From Nitrospirota bacterium (GTDB lineage Bacteria > Nitrospirota > Thermodesulfovibrionia > Thermodesulfovibrionales > Dissulfurispiraceae), in the NCBI GenBank assembly GCA_040752355.1, contig JBFMHE010000009.1, forward strand, positions 62,001 to 126,000: 64,000 bases of DNA. Direction: 5' to 3'. Below are positions 3,611-37,663 of this stretch, one piece after another. How positions within the stretch are numbered: the stretch's first letter is position 1; every line of letters begins with the position of its first letter. Position numbers and translations under genes: made by a program. Under the pieces are notes generated by a model, which saw nothing but the letters and a program-made list of their open reading frames with translations, searched no databases and had not been told where the DNA came from.

Positions 3611-4081
3611 CTAAAGCTTCTTCAAGAGGCACACCGCCTGGGCCGCGATCCCCTCGCCTTTGCCGGCAAACCCCATTCCCTCGTTGGTCTTCGCCTTTAT
3701 ATTGATGCGTGAGGGATCGATGCCGGACTGTGCGATAGCCGTCTTCATTGCATCCAGGTGAGGAGCCATTTTCGGCCTTTCGGCGATGATGATCGAATCG
3801 ATCCACGCAATCTCGAAACCCTCCGCCCTGACGAGATCGACGACCCCCTTGAGCAGGAGGATGCTCGACGCGTCTTTCCATGCGGGATCGGTATCGGGGA
3901 AGTGCCTCCCGATATCCCCCTCGCCCAGGGCGCCGAGGAGCGCATCGATAATGGCATGGCAGAGCACGTCCGCATCGGAATGGCCGAGGAGCCCCCTCTC
4001 GAAAGGGATCTCGACGCCGCCGATAATGAGCTTCCGCCCTTCGACCAGCCTGTGTGAATCGTAACCTATACCAACACGCAT
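3611..4081 (-). CDS. ispF: 2-C-methyl-D-erythritol 2,4-cyclodiphosphate synthase
   Basis: IspF converts CDP-methylerythritol 2-phosphate to the cyclic diphosphate in the MEP isoprenoid pathway; it is a cytoplasmic trimer with zinc. GIGYDSHRL holds the Asp and His metal ligands, [20 protein letters not shown] is the family signature, and [20 protein letters not shown] is the C-terminal active-site block. The length (about 156 residues) is normal. I chose ATG 4081 ([10 protein letters not shown]) over an in-frame TTG five codons upstream. It follows ispD on the same strand, the classical ispDF order, with only a repeat-rich gap of 89 bases between them. Confidence 0.93.
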
Positions 4082-4085
4082 ACCC

Positions 4086-4132
4086 CTAAATTCCAATCCT
4101 CAAATTCCAAAATCCAAACAAGTTCCAAACTT
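4086..4132. repeat. TTCCAAATTCC-type repeat tract after ispD
   Basis: This AT-rich run of TTCCAA/AAATTCC units lies between the S23-like end of the ispD fusion and ispF. A matching tract (4561-4644, on the other side of the S23-like domain) is translated as a linker. The S23-like segment is therefore flanked by two copies of the same degenerate repeat. Confidence 0.65.
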
Positions 4133-4170
4133 CAAGCTCAACGACCAAACAGACTTAACGACCCAATGAT

Positions 4171-5361
4171 TCATCCCTTGCTCTTTTCAACAATCGCACT
4201 GAATATTTTCGTCAACTCGACCGATTCGCGCAAAAGAGTACCGCGGTCAGACTCCTGAAGACTATCACAAGAGACGAGTTTAAGCCAATAGCCGCTTTCC
4301 TTTGCCTCTTTCCGGCATATCTTAATTCTCATAAGGAAATCCTTCTTACTCAAAGACTCATTGGCTTCGATATAATTCGCCCCTACAGAGCCAGCCGACC
4401 TGACAAGCTGTTTGCACATCTCGCTATTCTGCAACGTCCTGGGCAACCCTCCGGAAAAGGTAACAACATCTTTGGCAAACTTGAGCGTCCGAAGTCCCAG
4501 ATCGAACGGCTTTCCGTAAGGCTCTGTATCTTTTTGTTCGCGATTTTGACTTAGGAATTCGTTTGAGTTTTGGCTCTCGGAATTTGGAACTTGTTTGGGG
4601 TCTGGAATTTGTTTGGAATTTGGAGTCTGGAATTTGGAATTTGCCTTTAACAGCGCTTCCGCGACAATGGCATCCTCGGGGGTGGTTACCTTTATGTTCC
4701 GGTACGAGCCCTCTACCACCCGTATCGTACCGCCGGACTTCTCGACGAGCGCCGCATCGTCGGTCGCGTAGTATCCGTCGGCGCGGGCTTTCTCGTGGGC
4801 GTGCCTGATCCTGTCCACCCGGAAGGTCTGCGGCGTCTGGACAGCCCAGAGCACGGAGCGGTCCAGGGTCCTCCTGACGACGATCTCTTCGCCCTCGGTA
4901 CCGTCCTCGTACCGGCGGAGCCTGCCCTCCTTGATGGTGTCCTTCACCGGGACCGCGGCGACGACGCCGTCGAAATCCTCGAGCCCCGCAATCGTCCGCC
5001 CGATCAGCGCCCCATCCGCGAGCGGCCGCGCGCCGTCGTGTATCACGACGACAGAGGCCTTGCCGTCCAGCGCCTTGAGGCCGTTGTAGACCGAATCCTG
5101 GCGCTCTTTGCCGCCGGGGATAATGCGCTTCACCTTCGTAATCCCGTACCGCTCGATCAGCGCAGCGCCTGGGGAGATATCCTCTCCCTTGAGCACGGGG
5201 ATGATCTCGGCGATCTCCTCCACGCCCTGGAGCGCCTCGAGCGTCCAGATGAGGAGCGGCTTGCCGAGGAGCTCGAAGAGCGGCTTGTTGCGCTCCGAGC
5301 CGAACCGCGTCCCCAGCCCCGCGGCAGGGACAACTGCGACTACTCTCTCTCCCTTGATCAT
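4171..5361 (-). CDS. ispD: IspD fused to an S23-type four-helix-bundle domain
   Basis: Residues 1 to about 240 are a complete IspD, which makes CDP-methylerythritol from MEP and CTP. The signature PAAGLGTRFG is at the N-terminus, then HDGARPL, AVQTPQTFR, TDDAALVE and KVTTPEDA. IspD normally ends here. The frame instead continues through a low-complexity Asn/Ser/Pro/Lys/Gln linker (about 241-285) into a four-helix-bundle domain of the S23 or 23S-rRNA-intervening-sequence family (GSVGANYIEANESLSKKDF, then IKICRKEAKESGYWL). The linker is encoded by a short-repeat tract. I infer that an S23 gene landed behind ispD and read through. IspD function is probably retained. The S23 part has no defined activity. 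Confidence 0.88.
   Translation of the reverse strand: MIKGERVVAVVPAAGLGTRFGSERNKPLFELLGKPLLIWTLEALQGVEEIAEIIPVLKGEDISPGAALIERYGITKVKRIIPGGKERQDSVYNGLKALDGKASVVVIHDGARPLADGALIGRTIAGLEDFDGVVAAVPVKDTIKEGRLRRYEDGTEGEEIVVRRTLDRSVLWAVQTPQTFRVDRIRHAHEKARADGYYATDDAALVEKSGGTIRVVEGSYRNIKVTTPEDAIVAEALLKANSKFQTPNSKQIPDPKQVPNSESQNSNEFLSQNREQKDTEPYGKPFDLGLRTLKFAKDVVTFSGGLPRTLQNSEMCKQLVRSAGSVGANYIEANESLSKKDFLMRIKICRKEAKESGYWLKLVSCDSLQESDRGTLLRESVELTKIFSAIVEKSKG
4561..4644. repeat. AATTTGGAATTTG repeat tract translated as the IspD-S23 linker
   Basis: This tract of TTTGGAATTTGG/GTTTGG units lies in the ispD coding frame and is much lower in GC than the flanking IspD sequence. On the minus strand it reads as a peptide rich in N, S, K, Q and P (NSKFQTPNSKQIPDPKQVP). 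It matches the tract after the S23-like stop, giving a repeat-S23-repeat arrangement. Confidence 0.75.
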
Positions 5362-7935: not shown

Positions 7936-9879
7936 TTATTTTACCATGAATTTGCGCACGTCACCTACGCGGAGCGTGATCCGGTGGGCGTCGATATACT
8001 CGAGGAGCGGCACCGCGTACTTCCGGGAGGTGTTGAGGATGTCCCTGAACTCCGACACCGTCATCTCGGGCTTTTTTGCGAAGAAGCCCTTCAGCCGGGC
8101 GATCATCGTATCGTACTGTTCGCGGGTGATATACATCGCATCGTTGATGCGGACCAGTGCCCCTTCCTTGGTAAGGAGCTTCAGCATATCGCCGAGCTCC
8201 TTGTCGCCGAGGGAGAGCTGCTGGGCGAGCTCGGCCTTGAACGGGGGCTGAAAGCCCTCCTTGCCGAGCAGCGCCATGAGCCTGCTCTTTACGCCCTCGT
8301 CCGTGCTCGTGAGCGCGACCCTGAACTCTTTCAGCCGCACCGTATCCTTCTCGACCACAGCATCCTTCACCAGCTCGACAAGGCTGTTGAATACCTTCTC
8401 TGCATCCTTCTGGTAGATCCTGACGCGCGCCCGGAGCTCTTCCTTAGGCATGCCCTGCCTGAGGGGGTTCTCTTTGTGGAACTGCCGCAGCTCTGCCACG
8501 ACCGCCTCCCTGAACGCATCGAAGGCGATCCTGTGGAGCAGCACCTCATGCACGCCGATCACCGCTCCCTCTTTGACCAGCTGGGCTATCGCGGCCCTGA
8601 TGTCGGGGATATTGCCCAGGACCCAGCCCTCGATCTCTGCGGTGCGGCAGCCGTTGAAATGCGCCCGCTTCACCTTGGTCTCTATCTTCTCCTTCAGGGA
8701 GCCCTCTTTGAAGACGACGAGGTCTTCGATCCCGCTCTTCCTTTTCCGCCTGATCGGGTAGGGATCGAGCACCGACCCGCCGCCGATCGTCTCGAGGGGG
8801 GAGAACCTCCTGACGATATACCGGTCCCCTGAGAGGACGACGACCGGGTCTTCGAGCCTGAACTGGCAGAAGCACGACTCGCCCGCGGCCACCTCGCTCC
8901 TGTCGTAGAGGATCACCCGGGCGATGGTCTCGGCAGTGCCGGAATAGAAGTGGACACGGTCCCTGCTCTTGATGACCGGCGCGTCTTTCAGCATCTCGAG
9001 CTCGGCGTCGAGCACGGCGGTCGGCGCGATCTTGTCGGAATCGACCACCACATCGCCGCGCTTGAGCAGCTCCTTGTCCACGCCCTGGAGATTGATCCCG
9101 ATCCGCTGGCCTGCATACGCTTTTTGCGCGCTCCTGCCGTGGCTCTGGAGCCCCCGCACCTTGGTGGCGATCTTCGAGGGCAGTATCTCCACCGCCGCAT
9201 CCAGGGCTATGGTCCCCGACAGGGCGGTGCCGGTCACCACGGTGCCGAAGCCCTTCAGGGTGAAGACGCGGTCGATCGGGAGCCGGAAGAGCCCCTCGGT
9301 CAATTTCGGGGTGACCTTCCGCGCCACGTCGGCGATCGTCTCCCTCAGCTTCTCGATATTGAGACCCGACTTCGACGAGACCGGGATGACCTCGGCATGC
9401 TCGAGAAAGGTCCCCTTCACAAAAGACCGCACCTCGTCGGTGACGAGCTCCAGCCACTCGGCATCCACAAGATCGGCCTTGGTTACCGCGACGATGCCCG
9501 CCTTGATCTTGAGCAGCTCGCAGATGGCGAGGTGCTCGTGGCTCTGGGGCATGATCCCTTCATCGGCGGCGATGACCATCACGACGATATCGATACCGCC
9601 GGCCCCTGCCAGCATGTTCTTGATGAGCCGCTCGTGTCCCGGCACATCGACGATGCCGACATTGAGCCCGTCCGGATAGGAGAGATTGGCGAAACCGAGG
9701 TCGATGGTGATGCCCCGCTCCTTCTCCTCTTTCAGGCGGTCGGGGTCGACGCCGGTCAGGGCCTTGACCAGCGAGCTCTTGCCGTGGTCGATATGCCCGG
9801 CAGTGCCGAGAATGATGCTCTTGAAACTGCCGTGATCAGCGACGCGTGATCCGTGAGGGGAGAGAGACTCGATACTCAT
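7936..9879 (-). CDS. selB: Selenocysteine-specific elongation factor SelB
   Basis: SelB carries Sec-tRNA to UGA codons marked by a SECIS hairpin. The G1 motif is [19 protein letters not shown], the switch region RGITIDLGF, then [13 protein letters not shown] and VTKADL. EF-Tu-like domains 2 and 3 and four winged-helix repeats complete the 647 residues; the C-terminal repeats bind SECIS RNA. Its presence implies the organism makes selenoproteins, although selA, selC and selD are not here. The first 18 residues ([18 protein letters not shown]) are not SelB-like. They are encoded by a GCGTGATCCGTGA repeat tract, and conserved sequence begins at [11 protein letters not shown] without an in-frame ATG of its own. 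Confidence 0.93.
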
Positions 9880-9905
9880 TACGCATCACCCGTTACGCAT
9901 CACGA
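9836..9905. repeat. GCGTGATCCGTGA / TTACGCATCACG repeat tract at the selB-hisH junction
   Basis: Units of the same family as those ahead of the cassette terminators (GCGTGATGCGTGA) occur here in both orientations. They cover the first codons of selB and the last of hisH. The repeat has supplied the selB start codon. Confidence 0.65.
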
Positions 9906-10533
9906 ATTTATCGAACCCTTCCAGGATCTTCAAGCCCCTATCCTGGCTCTTTTCGGGATGGAATTGAGTGGCGCAGATATTGTCTTTCCATACCATGGAC
10001 ACAAAATCGACGCCGTAGCCGGTCCGCGCCGCGACCACCGCTTCCTGCTCGGGGACCACATAGTAGGAATGGACGAAATAAAAATAAGAGCGGTCCGGAA
10101 TCTCCTCGAAAAGAGGCGGCGTCCTGACCAGCCTCACCGTATTCCATCCCATGTGGGGAATCTTGAGTTGCTGACTGCTGACTGCTGACTGCTGATTGCC
10201 GTCGAACTTGAATTTGACTACCTTCCCCTTGAGCACATTCATCCCCCTGCAGAGCCCGAACTCTTCGGACTCGGTGAAGAGGATCTGCAGGCCGAGACAG
10301 ATGCCGAGATAGGGCTTGCCCTTCTCGATCTCCTTGACAATCACGTCGAGAAGGCTCAGCTTGTCGAGGTTGCCCATGCAGTCCTTGAAGGCCCCCACGC
10401 CGGGGAGCACGATGCCCTTCGCATCGGCAATGACCTTGGGATCGGCGGTGACCCTGACATCGGCGCCCGCCTTGAGAAACCCCTTCTCGACGCTCCGTAT
10501 GTTGCCCATCCCGTAATCGACTATCGCAATCAT
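9886..10533 (-). CDS. hisH: Imidazole glycerol phosphate synthase, glutaminase subunit
   Basis: HisH hydrolyses glutamine and passes ammonia to HisF in histidine synthesis. The nucleophile is Cys79 in YLGICLGLQ, with His192 and Glu194 in QFHPEKS completing the triad. DYGMGNIRSV is the usual start and LPGVGAFKDCM the oxyanion-side block. Residues 112-124 (GNQQSAVSSQQL) are an insertion absent from typical HisH. They are encoded by four TGCTGAC heptamers and fall in a surface region between KVVKFKF and KIPHMGWN. hisF and hisA are not adjacent, which is unusual. Length without the insertion is normal. Confidence 0.93.
   Translation of the reverse strand: MIAIVDYGMGNIRSVEKGFLKAGADVRVTADPKVIADAKGIVLPGVGAFKDCMGNLDKLSLLDVIVKEIEKGKPYLGICLGLQILFTESEEFGLCRGMNVLKGKVVKFKFDGNQQSAVSSQQLKIPHMGWNTVRLVRTPPLFEEIPDRSYFYFVHSYYVVPEQEAVVAARTGYGVDFVSMVWKDNICATQFHPEKSQDRGLKILEGFDKFVMRNG
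10168..10200. repeat. TGCTGAC heptamer array inside hisH
   Basis: Four to five consecutive 7-base units, TGCTGAC/TGCTGATT, lie inside the hisH reading frame. Seven-base units change frame each time, but the total keeps the gene open. The same units occur in murJ, at the start of the PhnD-like gene, and around hisH and comEC. Confidence 0.8.
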
Positions 10534-10553: not shown

Positions 10554-10660
10554 CTCTCAGCTATCAGCAAAGGACAAGGGAAAAGCCTCTGTAGTATAGC
10601 CGTTACAAAAGCTGATGGCTAAGACCTGACAGCTGACGGCTGAGAGCTGATTACTGATTG
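10554..10660. repeat. AGCTGACAGCTGAT-type repeat tract between comEC and hisH
   Basis: Degenerate AGCTGA/CAGCTATC units occur at both edges of the hisH-comEC gap, forming several small inverted repeats. No clear promoter or terminator stands out, so the hisH promoter is not identified. Confidence 0.55.
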
Positions 10661-10666
10661 ATTATT

Positions 10667-13138
10667 TTACCATACGAGAAAAAGATTTTTAAAATTAACG
10701 ACTTCATCATGCAGGGTCGAGGCCTCCCGGAGCAGCAGATCCCGCGCCCGTTTGATCGCGATACCGCTGTCCGGCCTCTCGCAGACCGCCACCGCGCCGT
10801 CCCTGTCGGTCCTGAGGACCTCCGCGCCAACCAGCAGCGACGTGACCGCCTCGTGCGGATGGCCGTACCGGTTATTGCGGCCCACGCTGAATACCGCCAC
10901 CTCGGGGGCGGCGTGCCGGAAGAACGCCGCCGATGCGGACGACCTGCTGCCGTGGTGCGGCGCCTTCAGGACGGTGCTCTTCAGATGCGCGCCGAGATGA
11001 GCGATATTTTCGAGCCCCTCCTTTTCGAGATCGCCGGCGAAGAGGAATGAGACCGTTCGCCCCTGGAGCCTGAAGGCCAGGGAGGCGTTGTTATCCTCGG
11101 AGCGAGGGGGGCCGGCGGAATAGAATTCCGGGTACGGGTGGAGGATATCTATTACATACCCCTTTCCCCGTACTGCATCCCCTCTCGAAAGGCCCCGATG
11201 CGCTATCGTATCCGGATGCCCCTCCGGCCACCCGGAGTAATACAGGCGGCCGTTATCCCACAGCTCCTTCACGGCAACGTCATCGATGAGCGCATCCAGA
11301 CCGCCCGCATGGTCGGACTGGCCGTGCGAGAGGATGAGCGCATCGATCGTCGTTATTCCTCTCGACCGGAGGAATGCGGAGACGGGGAACCCATTGCTCC
11401 CGGTATCGATCACCAGCACCTTGCCGTCGGGCAGCTCGGCCACTGCTGCGTCGCCCTGCCCTACATCGAGGAAGGTGACGCAGAGCTGTCCCGGAGCAGC
11501 GGCCGTAATGACGACATAGATCGCGAAAGGAACGACCCCGAGGGCGAGGAGCGCCCAGTGCCGCCGTGCAGTCCACCCGGCCTGTTCCCGTTTTCCGCTG
11601 CGATACGCACCGGCCGCCATAAAGATGAAGATGAGGAGAGCGCCGTAAAAAGATACGAGCAGCGCCGGAGGGAATGCCGGGACAGAGAGGGAGGCGCCGG
11701 GGAGCCGGGCAGCGCGCTCGACCAGGGAGAGCACCGATGCCGTAAGCATGTCGATAAGCGACGAGAAAGGGAACCGGTCGAAGAGGAGGAAGACAAACGA
11801 TGAGAGCAATGCCGTCGGGAGGAGGATCGCCCCGATGAGCGGCGTAATGAGCAGATTGGTTACCGGAGCGATGAGAGAGACGTAATGGAACGAATACGCC
11901 ACCAGCGGCGCGGTGCCGAGTGCGGCGGCAGAGGAGATGAGCGCGGACGAGACGGCAAACCGCCGCAGTGAGGCAGCCGCTTTTCGGGGCATGCTCTCCC
12001 GGACAAACGCTCCGTCGCGGGGAGCCCCGCCTTCAGGGGCGCTGCGCCGGAGCTCCACCGCGATGCCGATACACAGCACCGCGATAAAGGAGAGCTGAAA
12101 CGACAGATCGCCCAGCCCGGCAGGGTGCAGCAGGAGGATCACCGCAGCCGCGCAGAGCAGGGTAACGAGCCAGAGCCCGCGGCGTTGTATGAGGAGGGCG
12201 AAGAGAAAGACCAGGATCATGATGAACGCCCGGAGGGCAGGAATGCCCCCCGAAGAGATGCCGAGATACACGATGATAAACGGAAGAGAGCAGGCTGCCG
12301 CGATCTGGGACGGCGTCGCATACCGCGTCACCCGGACGAGCATCCGGTAAGGCAGATACCTAAAAAGAGCCCTGAAGACCGCGAAGACGACGATGAAGAG
12401 CAGCCCGAAATGAGTGCCCGATATACTCAGGATGTGGGCGAGCCCCGTAGCGTTGAAGGCGTCGCGCACCTCCCTGGTCAGGAGCGCGCGGTCCCCGATG
12501 AGGATCGAGAGGAGAAACGACGCCGACTGCTCCGAAAAATCGCTTTTGATGCCATTGCGCAGCCGCATCCGTGCCGTCCCGAAAAGCCCTCCCGGCGCAC
12601 CCTTCTCCTTTTCCACCGAAACGGCATAGGCACGGGGGAAAGCGAGCCCGCCCGTCCGGCTCATGCCCGGGTTCAGCAGGGGCCCGGTCCCGGAGAGGGT
12701 AGCGGTAATGGCGTAGGGCTCGTCGGGCGAGAGTGCCGTACCGGTGATGAGGCGCACCTCTCTCAAGGATACCGGCGCGCCGCTGCCGTCAACCGCCCGG
12801 TCGAGATCGACCGTCTGCACGAATTGAAGGGGTCGCGTCCGGAGCGGCGCCGCGCTCTCTCTCGCGACGCCGCTCGCGGTGATCGTGCGCTTCCCGTCGG
12901 CAGCAGCCGTTGCCGCGTGGTGAGCCCGCGCATGGAAAAAGCCGGAAGCGGCGAGAGCGGCGAGCGCGCAACAAAAGAGCAGCATCCTGCTGCGGCCAGC
13001 TCCCTCACCGGTACCGGACCGGCGCCTTGTTGCAGCGAAGATGAAGAGAAGCGCGGCGAGGACGGATGAAGAGAACGGAAAAAAACGGGATGCATGATAC
13101 CACGCGACCCCGACGATGAACGCACCGAAATAGCTCAT
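10667..13138 (-). CDS. comEC: ComEC/Rec2 family DNA-uptake channel protein
   Basis: This 823-residue inner-membrane protein is predicted to carry single-stranded DNA across the membrane during natural transformation. An N-terminal part with hydrophobic helices and an OB-like region precedes the Competence domain, marked by LAHILSISGTHFGLLF and PALRAFIMI. The C-terminal MBL-fold domain has FLDVGQGDAAV, LILSHGQSDHAGGL and LKAPHHGSRSS. In the metal motif the usual HxDxDH reads HGQSDH, keeping His, Asp and His but not the first Asp. The start ATGAGCTAT lies inside an AGCTATGAGCT repeat. No other competence genes are in the window. Confidence 0.92.
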   Translation of the reverse strand: MSYFGAFIVGVAWYHASRFFPFSSSVLAALLFIFAATRRRSGTGEGAGRSRMLLFCCALAALAASGFFHARAHHAATAAADGKRTITASGVARESAAPLRTRPLQFVQTVDLDRAVDGSGAPVSLREVRLITGTALSPDEPYAITATLSGTGPLLNPGMSRTGGLAFPRAYAVSVEKEKGAPGGLFGTARMRLRNGIKSDFSEQSASFLLSILIGDRALLTREVRDAFNATGLAHILSISGTHFGLLFIVVFAVFRALFRYLPYRMLVRVTRYATPSQIAAACSLPFIIVYLGISSGGIPALRAFIMILVFLFALLIQRRGLWLVTLLCAAAVILLLHPAGLGDLSFQLSFIAVLCIGIAVELRRSAPEGGAPRDGAFVRESMPRKAAASLRRFAVSSALISSAAALGTAPLVAYSFHYVSLIAPVTNLLITPLIGAILLPTALLSSFVFLLFDRFPFSSLIDMLTASVLSLVERAARLPGASLSVPAFPPALLVSFYGALLIFIFMAAGAYRSGKREQAGWTARRHWALLALGVVPFAIYVVITAAAPGQLCVTFLDVGQGDAAVAELPDGKVLVIDTGSNGFPVSAFLRSRGITTIDALILSHGQSDHAGGLDALIDDVAVKELWDNGRLYYSGWPEGHPDTIAHRGLSRGDAVRGKGYVIDILHPYPEFYSAGPPRSEDNNASLAFRLQGRTVSFLFAGDLEKEGLENIAHLGAHLKSTVLKAPHHGSRSSASAAFFRHAAPEVAVFSVGRNNRYGHPHEAVTSLLVGAEVLRTDRDGAVAVCERPDSGIAIKRARDLLLREASTLHDEVVNFKNLFLVW

Positions 13139-13163
13139 AGCTCACAGCTCATGAGCAGCTGAA

Positions 13164-31955: not shown

Positions 31956-33683
31956 TCAGTACTGTTTGAGGGCGTTGAACTCGGCCTCGTTCGCTGCCTT
32001 GAACCGCTTGACCCCCGCAGCCTCCAGTATCTCCCGGTCATCGAGACCGATCAGGAGGAGCTTCACCCGGTGCACCAGCGACGGGCTCAGCGTCCCGCAG
32101 TGCGCAAAGGGCCAGTTGGGAAGCGGTGCGGTACGGGCGAGCACCCGTATCTTCCGCATGTCTATTTCATCCTTGACCACGTCCAGCGCCGACTCGCGCA
32201 CAAAGCCGGCGTCAGCCTCTCCCTTGTAAACGCCCAGGATGACCTTCTCCTGCCGCTTCGCATCCACGATCTTCATGTCCCGCTCGGTATCGAGGCCCGC
32301 CTGCATCAGGAAGAGCCGCTGGGAGAGATACCCCCCCGCCGATTTCGGCGAGGTGATGAGCACCCGCCTGTTCTTCAGTCCCCGTACATCCTTTATGGCG
32401 CTGTCGCTCCGGGTGATGATCACGCCCCTGAAGCGGTCTCCGGCCTCCATGTATTCGTCCACGGTGGTGACCAGCGGCGTGATATCCGTCTCCCGGTCGA
32501 TCAGCGCGAAGATATAGGGATTCTGGTAGGAGAAGTCCACGGCCCGCCGTTTCACCGTCCGGACGAAGTCGTCGAAATCCCTGGGGATCACCAGCTTGAA
32601 CTCGTAGCCCGTCTTCCGCGAGAGATGGCGCATGAGCGGATCGTACTTGTTGTAGATCGTCACCGCTGAATAGAGCGGCAGCACGGCCACCTTGATCGTT
32701 TTGGGCCCGTACTCGATATAACTCTTGCCGGTGAGGTTCTTCAGCATGACCCGGATGACATCGAAATCCCTGTCTTCCGCAGCGGTAAACTCCATCTCCT
32801 TATCGATCGCGAAAAGGGTATCCCTGCCCTCTCCGACGGTGAGGCTCCTGACCACCGCGCTCCTGAGATGCGCCGGAAGCACCGCCGAGGCACAGAGGAC
32901 GAACTGGGGCACGATCTCCGACCGCTTGATGATCTTCAGCCCGTCGTCGGCATACTTCATCGCCACCGCCTCGCTCATCGCTCCCACCTCGTACGTACCG
33001 ATGAGGACCGAAAGGGCCACCCGGTCCTCCTGCTCAAGGTAACTGGCGGAGGCGAGATCGTTTATCCCGATGCCCACGTCATTCAGCATGGCGAGGGGAA
33101 TGAGATAGCTGAACGAGGATTGGCGGCTGCCGAAGGCGAGCCGCTTACCCTTGACCTCGACGATCTTTTCGATGGGGCTGCTGCTCTTCGCGACCAGCAC
33201 GCTCCGCGACGACGCACTCCCTTTTCCCGAGGACCTGACCAGGGGAGCGACCCGGGCGCCATAGCGCGCCCTCACCTCGCAGTATGTTGCGGGATCGAGA
33301 TACGCCATATGCACCTGGCCGCTTCCGAGCTCGTTAATGGCGGACTCGTAGTCCTTGGCGATCCGGATGACCACCGGCACGTTCAATGACCGCTCGAGGT
33401 AATATTTGAGCGGCAGGAACCGCTGGTACATGGCGCCGGCGCTCTCGACCGGCAGGATGGAGAGGACAAGCGGAGGAGCGCTCGAATCCGAAGGCGCCTG
33501 CCGTCCGGCGGCTGCAGGGCGCGGGGCGCTATCGTTCTGACCTGAGCAGGAGAAAAGCCACACGACGGAAAACAGAAGAGAAAGCACCGTGCGGAGGCGT
33601 ACAGAGAAGTCAAAGACTCGTTTGCCTTTGCAGTATTTCCTGACTGCTGATTGCCGACTGCTGATTGCTGCCTTGTGCTTCAC
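31956..33683 (-). CDS. Lipoprotein with two PhnD-like solute-binding domains
   Basis: This 575-residue protein has a lipoprotein signal ending LFSVVWLFSCSGQ, with the Cys as the lipidation site. Two tandem PhnD-type periplasmic-binding domains follow (about 75-320 and 330-570). The first is marked by YLERSLNVPVVIRIAKDYE and HMAYLDPATY, the second by LMRHLSRKTGYEFKLVIPRDF and DFSYQNPYIFALID. PhnD-like domains bind oxyanions such as phosphonates and also form the sensor part of tetrathionate kinases. Next to a kinase gene, it probably presents a ligand to the sensor. The start is GTG 33683, overlapping the MBL stop (GTGA). The first residues (ISSRQSAV) come from a TGCTGAC-type repeat. Confidence 0.82.
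   Translation of the reverse strand: MKHKAAISSRQSAVRKYCKGKRVFDFSVRLRTVLSLLFSVVWLFSCSGQNDSAPRPAAAGRQAPSDSSAPPLVLSILPVESAGAMYQRFLPLKYYLERSLNVPVVIRIAKDYESAINELGSGQVHMAYLDPATYCEVRARYGARVAPLVRSSGKGSASSRSVLVAKSSSPIEKIVEVKGKRLAFGSRQSSFSYLIPLAMLNDVGIGINDLASASYLEQEDRVALSVLIGTYEVGAMSEAVAMKYADDGLKIIKRSEIVPQFVLCASAVLPAHLRSAVVRSLTVGEGRDTLFAIDKEMEFTAAEDRDFDVIRVMLKNLTGKSYIEYGPKTIKVAVLPLYSAVTIYNKYDPLMRHLSRKTGYEFKLVIPRDFDDFVRTVKRRAVDFSYQNPYIFALIDRETDITPLVTTVDEYMEAGDRFRGVIITRSDSAIKDVRGLKNRRVLITSPKSAGGYLSQRLFLMQAGLDTERDMKIVDAKRQEKVILGVYKGEADAGFVRESALDVVKDEIDMRKIRVLARTAPLPNWPFAHCGTLSPSLVHRVKLLLIGLDDREILEAAGVKRFKAANEAEFNALKQY
33639..33672. repeat. TGCTGAC/TGCTGATT repeat at the start of the PhnD-like gene
   Basis: The tract CTGACTGCTGATTGCCGACTG and further units lie within the first 15 codons, encoding ISSRQSAV. 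Its units match those in hisH and murJ. Confidence 0.7.
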
Positions 33684-34309: not shown

Positions 34310-34325
34310 CGAACCTCCCCTCCTC

Positions 34326-35999
34326 TTACTCCTGACTTCTGGCTCCTGAATTCTGGATTCTGGATTCCAGCCTCTTGCTCCTTACTTTATTTATGATATA
34401 CCCCATTTCTTCGCTTTTTAGCAAATAAGCGGCGGTGAAGTACACCACCATGCAGAAAGCCATGGCGCCGCCGAGGTACGCTGCCTTGTAGAGGCCCTGC
34501 CCGCTCGCCATCCAGAGATCGCTCTGCGCAGCGCTCCACCCTGCCGCTCCCATAACGGCAGAGGCGAGGAGCGTCTTCCCGAAGGAGAGGCCGATCCCCG
34601 CTGCTCCCATACCGCCGAGCCTCGTGCGCAGCAGGGAGAAGAGCATCAGGAAGTTGACCCCCGCGGCGAGGGCATTGGCGAGGGCGAGCCCCTTGTGCTG
34701 CATCGGCCCCATGAGGAGCAGGCTCAACCCTATATTGACGAGCATCGCCGCCGCCGCGACCTTCACCGGGGTCCGGGTGTCCTGTATGGAATAGAAGGCA
34801 GCCGCTATCGTCCTCACCCCGACGATAGCGCCGATGCCGAGGGCATAGAACATCAACGCGTCGGCAGTGGCTATCGTCGCTTCAGGACCGAACCTCCCCC
34901 GCTGGAAGAGCGTGGCGACGATGGGAATCTTCAGGGCGATGAGGCCGGCCATCGCCGGGATGGTAATGAAGAAGAGGAGGCGGAGCGCGAAAGAAAAATC
35001 CTCTTTCAGCTTATCCATCTCGCCGCGGACCGAATGCTCCGAGAGGGCGGGCAGCACCGCCATGCCCATGGCGACGCCGAAGATGCCGATGGGGAATTGG
35101 ATGAGCCGCATCGAATAGTACAGATAGGTTATGCTCCCTTCGGGAAGGTACGAAGCGAGGATGGTGCTTATGAATATGTTGATCTGGTTCACCGCAAGCC
35201 CCGCCGTGGCCGGAATGACAAGGATCCCGATCCGCTTGAGCCCCGGATGCCACAACGGCCGTGATGCGTGATGGATACCCGGCAATGGCTGATGGCTGAC
35301 GGCTGACGGCTGATTGCCGACTGCTGATTGCCGGCCCCTGAAAAAGTAGTATCCTTGCTTCAGGAACGACGGGACCTGGAAGAGAAACTGAACCAAGCCG
35401 CCCGCGACGATGCCGACCGCAACGGCGATGATGGGGCTCTCGAACCGGTCCGCGAGCGACAGCACGCAGACGATCGTGACCACATTGAGCATGGCCGGCG
35501 CCAGGGCCGGAATAAAGAAGACCCTCCGCGTGTTGAGCGCCCCCATGGCGAGCGCGGCAAGGCTGATGAAGAGGAGAAAGGGGAACATGATCCTCGTCAG
35601 GAGGACTGCGGTGGAGAACTTGCCCGGGTCGTCGAGAAAGCCGGGTGCGATCACCGTGACGAGGGCGGGGGCGAAGACGATGCCGAGCACGCAGAGGAGC
35701 CCTACCGCGACGAGGATGAAGAGGAACACCGAGCGGGCGAGCCTGTTCGCCTCTTCGTGCCCGTGCTTTGTCTGGTATTCCGTCAGCACGGGAACGAAGG
35801 CCGACGACATCGAGCCCTCGGCAAAGAGCTCCCTGAGAAGGTTCGGTATCCTGAAAGCGACGAAGAAGGCGTCGGCGACGGCCGTAGCGCCGAAGATCCC
35901 GGCGAGGATCATATCCTTTATATAGCCGAGGATCCGGCTGATAAAGGTGGCGATGGACATGACCCCTGCCGCCCGTGCTATTCTTCCCTTGGCGCTCAT
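34326..35999 (-). CDS. murJ: Lipid II flippase MurJ
   Basis: This protein of about 557 residues is a MOP-superfamily transporter with roughly 14 helices that flips lipid II for peptidoglycan synthesis. The signature start is ATFISRILGYIKDMILAGIFG, followed by ADAFFVAFRIPNLLRELFAEG. FYSIQDTRTPVKVAA is the C-lobe signature. Residues about 222-246 (RQSAVGNQPSAVSHQP and on) are an insertion encoded by mixed TGCTGAC and GCGTGAT repeats. The C-terminal tail (ESRIQNSGARSQE) also comes from a short-repeat tract at 34326-34375. ATG 35999 begins MSAKGRIARAAG. Function is probably intact, because both additions fall in loop or tail positions. Confidence 0.92.
   Translation of the reverse strand: MSAKGRIARAAGVMSIATFISRILGYIKDMILAGIFGATAVADAFFVAFRIPNLLRELFAEGSMSSAFVPVLTEYQTKHGHEEANRLARSVFLFILVAVGLLCVLGIVFAPALVTVIAPGFLDDPGKFSTAVLLTRIMFPFLLFISLAALAMGALNTRRVFFIPALAPAMLNVVTIVCVLSLADRFESPIIAVAVGIVAGGLVQFLFQVPSFLKQGYYFFRGRQSAVGNQPSAVSHQPLPGIHHASRPLWHPGLKRIGILVIPATAGLAVNQINIFISTILASYLPEGSITYLYYSMRLIQFPIGIFGVAMGMAVLPALSEHSVRGEMDKLKEDFSFALRLLFFITIPAMAGLIALKIPIVATLFQRGRFGPEATIATADALMFYALGIGAIVGVRTIAAAFYSIQDTRTPVKVAAAAMLVNIGLSLLLMGPMQHKGLALANALAAGVNFLMLFSLLRTRLGGMGAAGIGLSFGKTLLASAVMGAAGWSAAQSDLWMASGQGLYKAAYLGGAMAFCMVVYFTAAYLLKSEEMGYIINKVRSKRLESRIQNSGARSQE
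35261..35333. repeat. Mixed GCGTGAT and GCTGAC repeat tract inside murJ
   Basis: GTGATGCGTGATGG is followed by GGCTGATGGCTGACGGCTGACGG and TGATTGCCGACTGCTGATTG-type units, all in the murJ frame. It encodes a Gln/Ser/Ala/Pro-rich loop. It combines the unit seen at the toxin-antitoxin terminators with the one in hisH. Confidence 0.78.
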
Positions 36000-36754: not shown

Positions 36755-37663
36755 TTAGTGGCGTCGTCCGATAATGATTCTCTCGATTCCTGCATAGTCT
36801 TTTACGGTCTCGATACCGCTCAAGCCCGCTTTCACGGCCATCGCTTCGACACTGCGCGCCTGGCCGAACCCCATTTCGAGTACGAGTATCCCGTTCTCTC
36901 GAAGACGGGCAGGCGCCTGCCCGAGTATCTTCCGGTAGAATTCGAGCCCGTCCGGCCCTCCGTCGAGCGCTTCGTAAGGCTCGTACTCCTTTACCTCCCG
37001 CTGCAGCGTCGCTATCTCGCTCCTCGCAATATAGGGAGGGTTAGAGACAATGCAGTCGAACTGCCGGGAGCGTACCGGGTCGAACAGATCGCCCCATCTG
37101 AAATGAACATTCCCGATACCGTTTTCGAGCGCGTTCTGCGTCGCATACACCAGCGCCGCTTCTGACTGATCGACGCCATACACCTCGGCATCGGGGAAAT
37201 GCTTTGCAAGCGCGAGAGCGATGCACCCGCTGCCGGTGCAGAGGTCGAGAATGGCGCTCGGTGAGGGGTGATGGGTAACAGGTAAACCATCAGATTCTGA
37301 ACCCTGCTCTCCATAGCTCATGACCCGTGACCCATGACCCATGACCCGTTTTATCGTCTCTTCCACGAGCAGCTCGGTCTCGGGCCGCGGGATGAGCACG
37401 CCCGGCCCTACGTTGATGCGCAGACCATGGAACGGGACATGCCCGATGATATACTGGAGCGGCTCGCCCTTAAGCCGCCGGGCAGCTCCGGCGTCGACTG
37501 CGGCGGAAAGGGCAGCGGGCAGCTCCGGGTTATCGGCATACAGCCTCGCCTTACCGACAGGGAGCAGCTCCGCAACGAGCAGTGCAGCCTCTGCAGGAGC
37601 ATCCTCGATTCCGTTCTCTTCGAGAACATCCGAAACCTCTTTTATTTTCTGAAGGGCCTTCAT
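36755..37663 (-). CDS. prmC: Release factor glutamine methyltransferase PrmC
   Basis: PrmC methylates the GGQ glutamine of release factors and is encoded directly after prfA here. The SAM-binding motif is ILDLCTGSGCIALALAKHFP, and the catalytic NPPY is in CIVSNPPYIARSE. IPRPETELLVEE is the usual pre-domain motif. Residues about 105-136 (from VMGHGSRVMSYGEQGSES to PVTHHPSP) are an insertion between ETELLVEE and the SAM motif, encoded by CATGACCC repeats. ATG 37663 (MKALQKIKE) with GGAG upstream is preferred over starts nine codons earlier. Confidence 0.93.
   Translation of the reverse strand: MKALQKIKEVSDVLEENGIEDAPAEAALLVAELLPVGKARLYADNPELPAALSAAVDAGAARRLKGEPLQYIIGHVPFHGLRINVGPGVLIPRPETELLVEETIKRVMGHGSRVMSYGEQGSESDGLPVTHHPSPSAILDLCTGSGCIALALAKHFPDAEVYGVDQSEAALVYATQNALENGIGNVHFRWGDLFDPVRSRQFDCIVSNPPYIARSEIATLQREVKEYEPYEALDGGPDGLEFYRKILGQAPARLRENGILVLEMGFGQARSVEAMAVKAGLSGIETVKDYAGIERIIIGRRH
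37255..37347. repeat. CATGACCCGTGACC repeat tract inside prmC
   Basis: Units CATGACCC and GTGACCC recur at 37319-37347, with a diverged GGTGATGGGTAACAGG part at about 37261-37280, all in frame within prmC. The tract adds roughly 30 residues ahead of the SAM-binding domain. Confidence 0.72.

Follow-up and report, generated by a model that had tools for sequence, protein, structure and literature searches.

With good confidence, the gene for S23, a four-helix bundle protein, is the only gene of a small mobile element, and the heptamer arrays at the ends of this element are particular to each S23 lineage. Sequence comparison demonstrated the unit and its ends, as well as its gain and loss at given sites and the presence of dispersed hairpins lacking S23. 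The case from which the analysis started is an insertion probably received by the end of ispD, in a 64,000-nucleotide stretch of a Nitrospirota genome, hereafter the window (Table 1).

An S23 cassette at the end of ispD

Residues 7–239 of the fusion ORF matched IspD (Pfam, E 7e-65) and residues 293–387 matched 23S_rRNA_IVP (Pfam, E 1e-12). The IspD part scored 208 bits against the cut-off of 181 for TIGR00453, over profile positions 1–219 of 219 (NCBIfam), and the S23 part scored 48.3 bits against the curated cut-off of 33.8 for PF05635 and 64.9 bits against the cut-off of 24 for TIGR02436, 'four helix bundle protein' (NCBIfam). AlphaFold2 modelled the S23 part as a four-helix bundle with a pLDDT of 94, and the top PDB matches of the model were 2rld and 2gsc, followed by the DGR protein Avd (4dwl). 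The ORF, the profiles and the structural model thus confirmed the reading in the earlier note of a complete IspD running in frame through a repeat-coded linker into a full S23 bundle.

Table 1. Positions of the S23 cassette, its neighbours and a solo array in the window
Feature	Position	Strand	Description
IspD-S23 fusion ORF	4171-5361	minus	396 aa; complete IspD, repeat-coded linker and intact S23
IspD, complete, aa 1-240	4642..5361	minus	Relatives end here, ...EALLK-stop
Upstream arm, imperfect CAAATTC heptamer array	4556..4643 (about)	minus	In-frame linker NSKFQTPNSKQIPDPKQVPNSESQNSN
S23 / 23S_rRNA_IVP four-helix bundle	4171..4515	minus	Without own start codon before helix 1
Downstream arm, inverted array copy	4085..4136	minus	Ends shortly before the start codon of ispF
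Entire S23 cassette	4085..4643 (ends approximate)	minus	Inserted between ispD and ispF; inverted arms
ispF (YgbB family)	3611..4081	minus	Next operon gene; profile match
Solo heptamer array TGCTGAC	10169..10199	.	In frame within hisH, in a length-variable loop

The repeats that the earlier note had seen on both sides of S23 are present, but as inverted rather than direct copies: the two arms are imperfect arrays with a 7-nt period (coding side CAAATTC, opposite strand GAATTTG), are 77–83% complementary over 36–48 nt, and fold into a strong hairpin. The window contains 14 period-7 runs, versus none in the shuffled window.

The ends of ispD were read in 29 relatives, and all of them coincide with the point where the array starts here. 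In these relatives ispF usually follows ispD directly, and S23 was found at the junction in none of the 29. The proposal that the cassette entered the tail of an essential gene held up, and every relative read has an IspD without the extension. As far as these relatives go, this excludes an IspD-S23 fusion conserved across a deep clade, and a conserved fusion was rejected also because a long in-frame extension occurred at one of 150 S23 loci, namely the one in the window. In one relative, the ispD–ispF interval carries an ORF with its own flanking repeats (locus L154, 2190–2900), which reads as a DUF559-like endonuclease in translation.

No ATG, GTG or TTG lies between the end of IspD and helix 1 of S23 in the fusion ORF, and S23 could therefore be produced only as an IspD fusion. 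The GC3 value is 0.85 for IspD, 0.38 for the linker and 0.54 for S23. Because S23 is absent from this junction in the relatives read, has no start of its own and coincides with this drop in GC3, it appears to be a foreign insert. The fusion most plausibly arose as an accident of read-through when the cassette inserted at the ispD stop codon; the inserted array lacked a stop in the ispD frame, so that IspD would be read through the array into S23. There is a slight chance that the fusion is an assembly error, but the frame stays open through 396 codons. The long open frame, together with an S23 fold predicted to be intact, would also suit a functional fusion enzyme maintained by selection; this is very unlikely, as the fusion is private to this genome among the relatives read and unique among the 150 S23 loci, and the codon composition of its S23 part is foreign.

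Matched heptamer arms around S23 genes in many phyla

The genome carries three S23 genes, each located between facing heptamer arrays and each with a different heptamer, those of the other two being CGTAACG and AGCTATC. One of these other two lies 1.5 kb outside the left edge of the window. One repeat common to all S23 genes was rejected, as the heptamers differ per gene; of the expectation that other S23 genes would be flanked by the same repeat, the flanking therefore stood, while the heptamer itself proved private to each S23 lineage.

A set of 149 S23 loci was assembled: 70 came from genomes within the same family and order, and 79 from a scan across phyla. An alignment of 14 sequences was too diverse for use in scanning. 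Matched inverted arms, defined by a score of at least 14, were present at 72% of the 149 loci and in many phyla, corresponding to the terminal inverted repeats of a DNA transposon or MITE-like unit. The proportion was 2.3% after arms had been swapped between loci, and 0.6% both in 328 control ORFs and in 503 control positions from the same loci. Since matching was almost confined to the own locus, the arms are specific to their own S23. The enriched periods were only 7, its double 14 and, in some cases, 8 or 6, and the arms had a median length of 32 nt, or 4–5 units. A presumed rule that the heptamer begins with AG proved only mild (75% versus 57% expected).

The heptamers were diverse, with 67 distinct ones among 75 two-armed loci. 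S23 pairs with more than 80% identity shared the array in 4 of 4 cases, whereas sharing fell to 35% at 60–80% identity and to 1–3%, that is, background, below 60%; none of 1000 array permutations reached the similarity observed for the closer pairs. As close S23 pairs share arrays and distant ones do not, the arrays move together with the gene and their sequence drifts rapidly, and the two arms of a single locus stay matched despite this drift. Coupling is restricted to close pairs, a smooth trend over all pairs being weak (Mantel 0.06, with 151 of 1000 permutations equally high). These sequence comparisons support the bracketing of S23 genes by heptamer arrays of their own lineage as a general pattern extending beyond the ispD locus.

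The upstream arm started at a median offset of +2 nt from the preceding gene's stop codon and within 20 nt of it at 57 of 80 loci, figures taken without control for the shortness of intergenic gaps. Annotated cassettes on plasmids were found in operons (cas6-S23-cas4, cas10-S23-cmr3, between the ribonucleotide reductase beta and alpha genes, and among conjugation genes). Three loci (L309, L314, L324) are S23 cassettes within CRISPR operons, of the type I-D (cas6-cas4) and type III-B (cas10-cmr3) kinds, and such cassettes may explain why S23 has been reported as CRISPR-linked (PMC10910872). One complete genome carries two S23 copies that are 97% identical (L033, L034), both beside apparent CRISPR arrays and both with a stop codon within the S23 ORF. 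In three distant lineages (L017, L073, L086), cassettes lie inside an apparent gene for a DNA methyltransferase, preceded by ...FGEPDI and followed by VNGVDVFHPNTG....

Filled and empty sites on plasmids and at nuoC-nuoD

Plasmid C of Trichormus variabilis contains an array-S23-array unit, and three conjugative plasmids that are 97–98% identical to it lack precisely this unit. Filled and empty plasmids differ by 428 bp; this length takes in GTAAT, a direct repeat of 5 bp found at the junction. No array is present at the empty sites. A Scytonema plasmid carries the same insert with one arm shorter, and a Nostoc plasmid carries a decayed remnant of it. In a second Nostoc case, TTCTA flanks the insert on both sides, while in four further filled/empty pairs 10–40 nt were replaced and no clear duplication was seen. 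Clear target duplications thus number only two, both belonging to a single S23 subfamily carried by plasmids of Nostocales, and the window cassette has no close empty site.

The nuoC-nuoD junction of Rhizobium was compared in 30 genomes. The shared flanks of these Rhizobiales loci had been considered as 23S rRNA, which was rejected because they are nuoC and nuoD. The junction was occupied by a class A cassette (AGTGAGT) in 7 genomes, class B (AGCGAAT) in 8 and class C (AGGCAAT) in 4; it was empty in 9 and held a solo-array remnant in 2. The S23 regions of the classes share 56–59% DNA identity with each other, compared with 87–91% for the flanks, and each class has its own heptamer on both arms. 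The classes are interleaved on the flank tree, requiring 15 changes versus a minimum of 4, with 22 of 200 shuffles equally low; homologous recombination in the flanks could account for part of this pattern. No S23 match was found in 50,697 phage records. Taken together, the matched arms across phyla, the filled and empty plasmid sites and the exchange of cassettes in Rhizobium bear out the suggestion of the earlier note that S23 moves as a repeat-bounded cassette.

Arrays and hairpins lacking S23

The heptamer of the window cassette also occurs elsewhere in this genome, in at least six inverted pairs without S23, 40–90 nt apart and in the same order as in the S23 pair, and in single arrays; matches to the heptamer pattern numbered 22 and 22 on the two strands, versus 2 and 1 for the reversed control pattern. 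In two relatives the ispD-ispF junction holds an S23-less AGGTTA/TAACCT hairpin, and both possess an S23 gene with AGGTTA arms.

Random 40-kb samples contained 19 period-7 arrays in ten S23-positive genomes versus 2 in ten S23-negative genomes (19 versus 2 per 400 kb, p 0.002), and some S23-negative genomes (G022, G057) have a few arrays. Genome-wide, the arrays were counted from pattern searches and 40-kb samples. Taken alone, the presence of CGTRAYG arrays showed no significant correlation with the presence of S23 (p 0.17). Among 60 genomes, AGCGAAT arrays outside nuoC-nuoD occurred in four, three of them Rhizobium genomes of class B; the p value of 0.006 for the link with class B is indicative because the class is known for 30 genomes only.

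Further period-7 arrays away from S23 lie in the window at 1-26, 1423-1448, 2069-2101, 2762-2794, 9864-9907, 10619-10666, 13130-13151, 33640-33670, 34325-34367, 35285-35331 and 37260-37347, and several of the non-S23 arrays resemble the heptamers of the other two S23 genes of the genome. At the hisH loop that holds a solo array here, two relatives (G010 and G001) have other heptamer-coded inserts.

Proposed element and alternative explanations

The proposed element would be about 420–560 bp long and end in two facing arrays of 4–5 heptamers each, private to the S23 lineage, and its insertion would prefer the 3′ end of an operon gene, often overlapping the stop codon. S23, whose fold resembles that of the pentamer Avd, would putatively bind the heptamer array of its own element, as DNA or as RNA, and would be needed for the movement or upkeep of the arrays. 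The structures 2gsc and 2rld contain five chains each. To our knowledge, S23 has no catalytic residues, and the annotated plasmid cassettes contain S23 only, with no transposase in the unit; the strand chemistry would presumably fall to an enzyme acting in trans. Solo arrays and hairpins at dispersed sites would then be non-autonomous relatives of the element, by analogy with REPs and RAYT.

Several other accounts were weighed. The arrays might be ordinary intergenic simple repeats, into or beside which S23 inserts, and they are indeed common away from S23 here and in other S23-positive genomes; however, the arms are inverted and match within one locus only, arrays are rare in S23-negative genomes, and the Rhizobium classes bring their own arrays to one site. 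The absence of the array at empty plasmid sites largely refutes this account, which we consider highly improbable. Movement of the arrays in trans by a RAYT or IS200-type (Y1) transposase, with S23 as a passenger, was disfavoured and is scarcely more credible. The dispersed hairpin units do resemble REPs, and Y1_Tnp genes occur in 40 of 60 relatives. Yet three S23-positive, array-bearing genomes (G001, G025, G054) gave no Y1_Tnp match, so that Y1 transposases are not required; the annotated cassettes lack the Y1 gene expected of a RAYT-REP system, and target duplications are not expected from the chemistry of IS200/605.

An account without transposition, in which S23 spreads by horizontal transfer and flank recombination and selection on an RNA hairpin keeps the arms matched, is unlikely but deserves more weight. 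The interleaved nuoC-nuoD alleles fit recombination, the window arms form a strong hairpin, and RNase III cleaves the stem of the intervening sequence (IVS) of Coxiella (PMC4990558). Against it stand the clean insertion with a 5-bp duplication, the many unrelated sites and the dispersed S23-less copies. A regulatory module, with S23 binding arrays in mRNA and controlling the operons that contain them, would be compatible with the mobile element and is the least doubtful of these accounts, if still somewhat unlikely. Arms at gene junctions in operons, matching dispersed arrays, and the correspondence of five chains in S23 structures to 4–5 units per arm would agree with it, and TRAP offers an analogy in binding repeated triplets; the patchy gain and loss within core-gene operons and the tolerance of decayed remnants argue against it.

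A mobile S23 element would provide a simple rule for a common bacterial protein family described as 'unknown', namely that facing heptamer arrays are to be expected wherever an S23 gene lies, and the mobility of its cassettes would explain the occurrence of S23 in rRNA as well as in the operons of CRISPR systems and plasmids. The heptamer-protein pairs (67 heptamers from 75 loci) constitute a ready test set for sequence-specific recognition of DNA or RNA by Avd-like pentamers.

Comparison with known systems

Among the open-licence papers searched, none was found to connect S23 genes at large with heptamer arms. The closest precedent is the IVS of Coxiella burnetii, which is 428 nt long with one S23 ORF and a stem of 28-bp inverted ends, and for which tandem GACAGAT heptamers before the ORF were given as one case; it was called selfish, with a sporadic distribution and a suspected horizontal origin (PMC4990558). 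The window cassette likewise has a single S23 ORF framed by terminal inverted repeats, but lies between ispD and ispF, not in a 23S rRNA gene. Whereas known IVSs reside in 23S rRNA, the cassettes described here lie between protein genes across phyla and on plasmids, heptamer arrays are their rule, each lineage having its own, and both filled and empty sites occur.

The DGR accessory protein Avd (4dwl) shares its fold with S23 (TM about 0.7), and its homology with PF05635 has been noted (PMC10053308); unlike in DGRs, no reverse transcriptase, template or variable repeat was seen within the annotated cassettes or among the annotated neighbours of plasmid S23 loci. RAYT-REP systems (REPtrons) and MITEs or REPINs resemble the S23 unit in having a gene between inverted short repeats and dispersed gene-less hairpins of the same repeat, but the S23 unit lacks a transposase and ends in variable heptamer arrays instead of a fixed palindrome.

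Cyanobacterial STRRs, the GGGAATC arrays of Xanthomonas and the TAACTGA arrays of Beggiatoaceae are also intergenic period-7 arrays, sometimes in ORF ends and often in inverted pairs, but were reported without an owner gene. The GGGAATC arrays form inverted pairs, 70 of them in X. campestris, with no owner gene described (PMC4692102), and the same holds for the owner of TAACTGA (PMC4679880). X. campestris encodes an S23 protein, XCC0516 (PDB 2gsc). The S23 element is a candidate source for heptamer repeats that have been ownerless for decades, and S23 a candidate for the repeat-binding mobile protein proposed by MacGregor in 2015. More tentatively, and with somewhat more doubt than belief, S23 genes could be central to a class of transposable elements that spans the bacteria and has no known transposase, in which an S23 oligomer would read about five heptamers per end, drift in recognition would yield lineage-specific heptamers, and STRRs, GGGAATC and TAACTGA would be the non-autonomous offspring.
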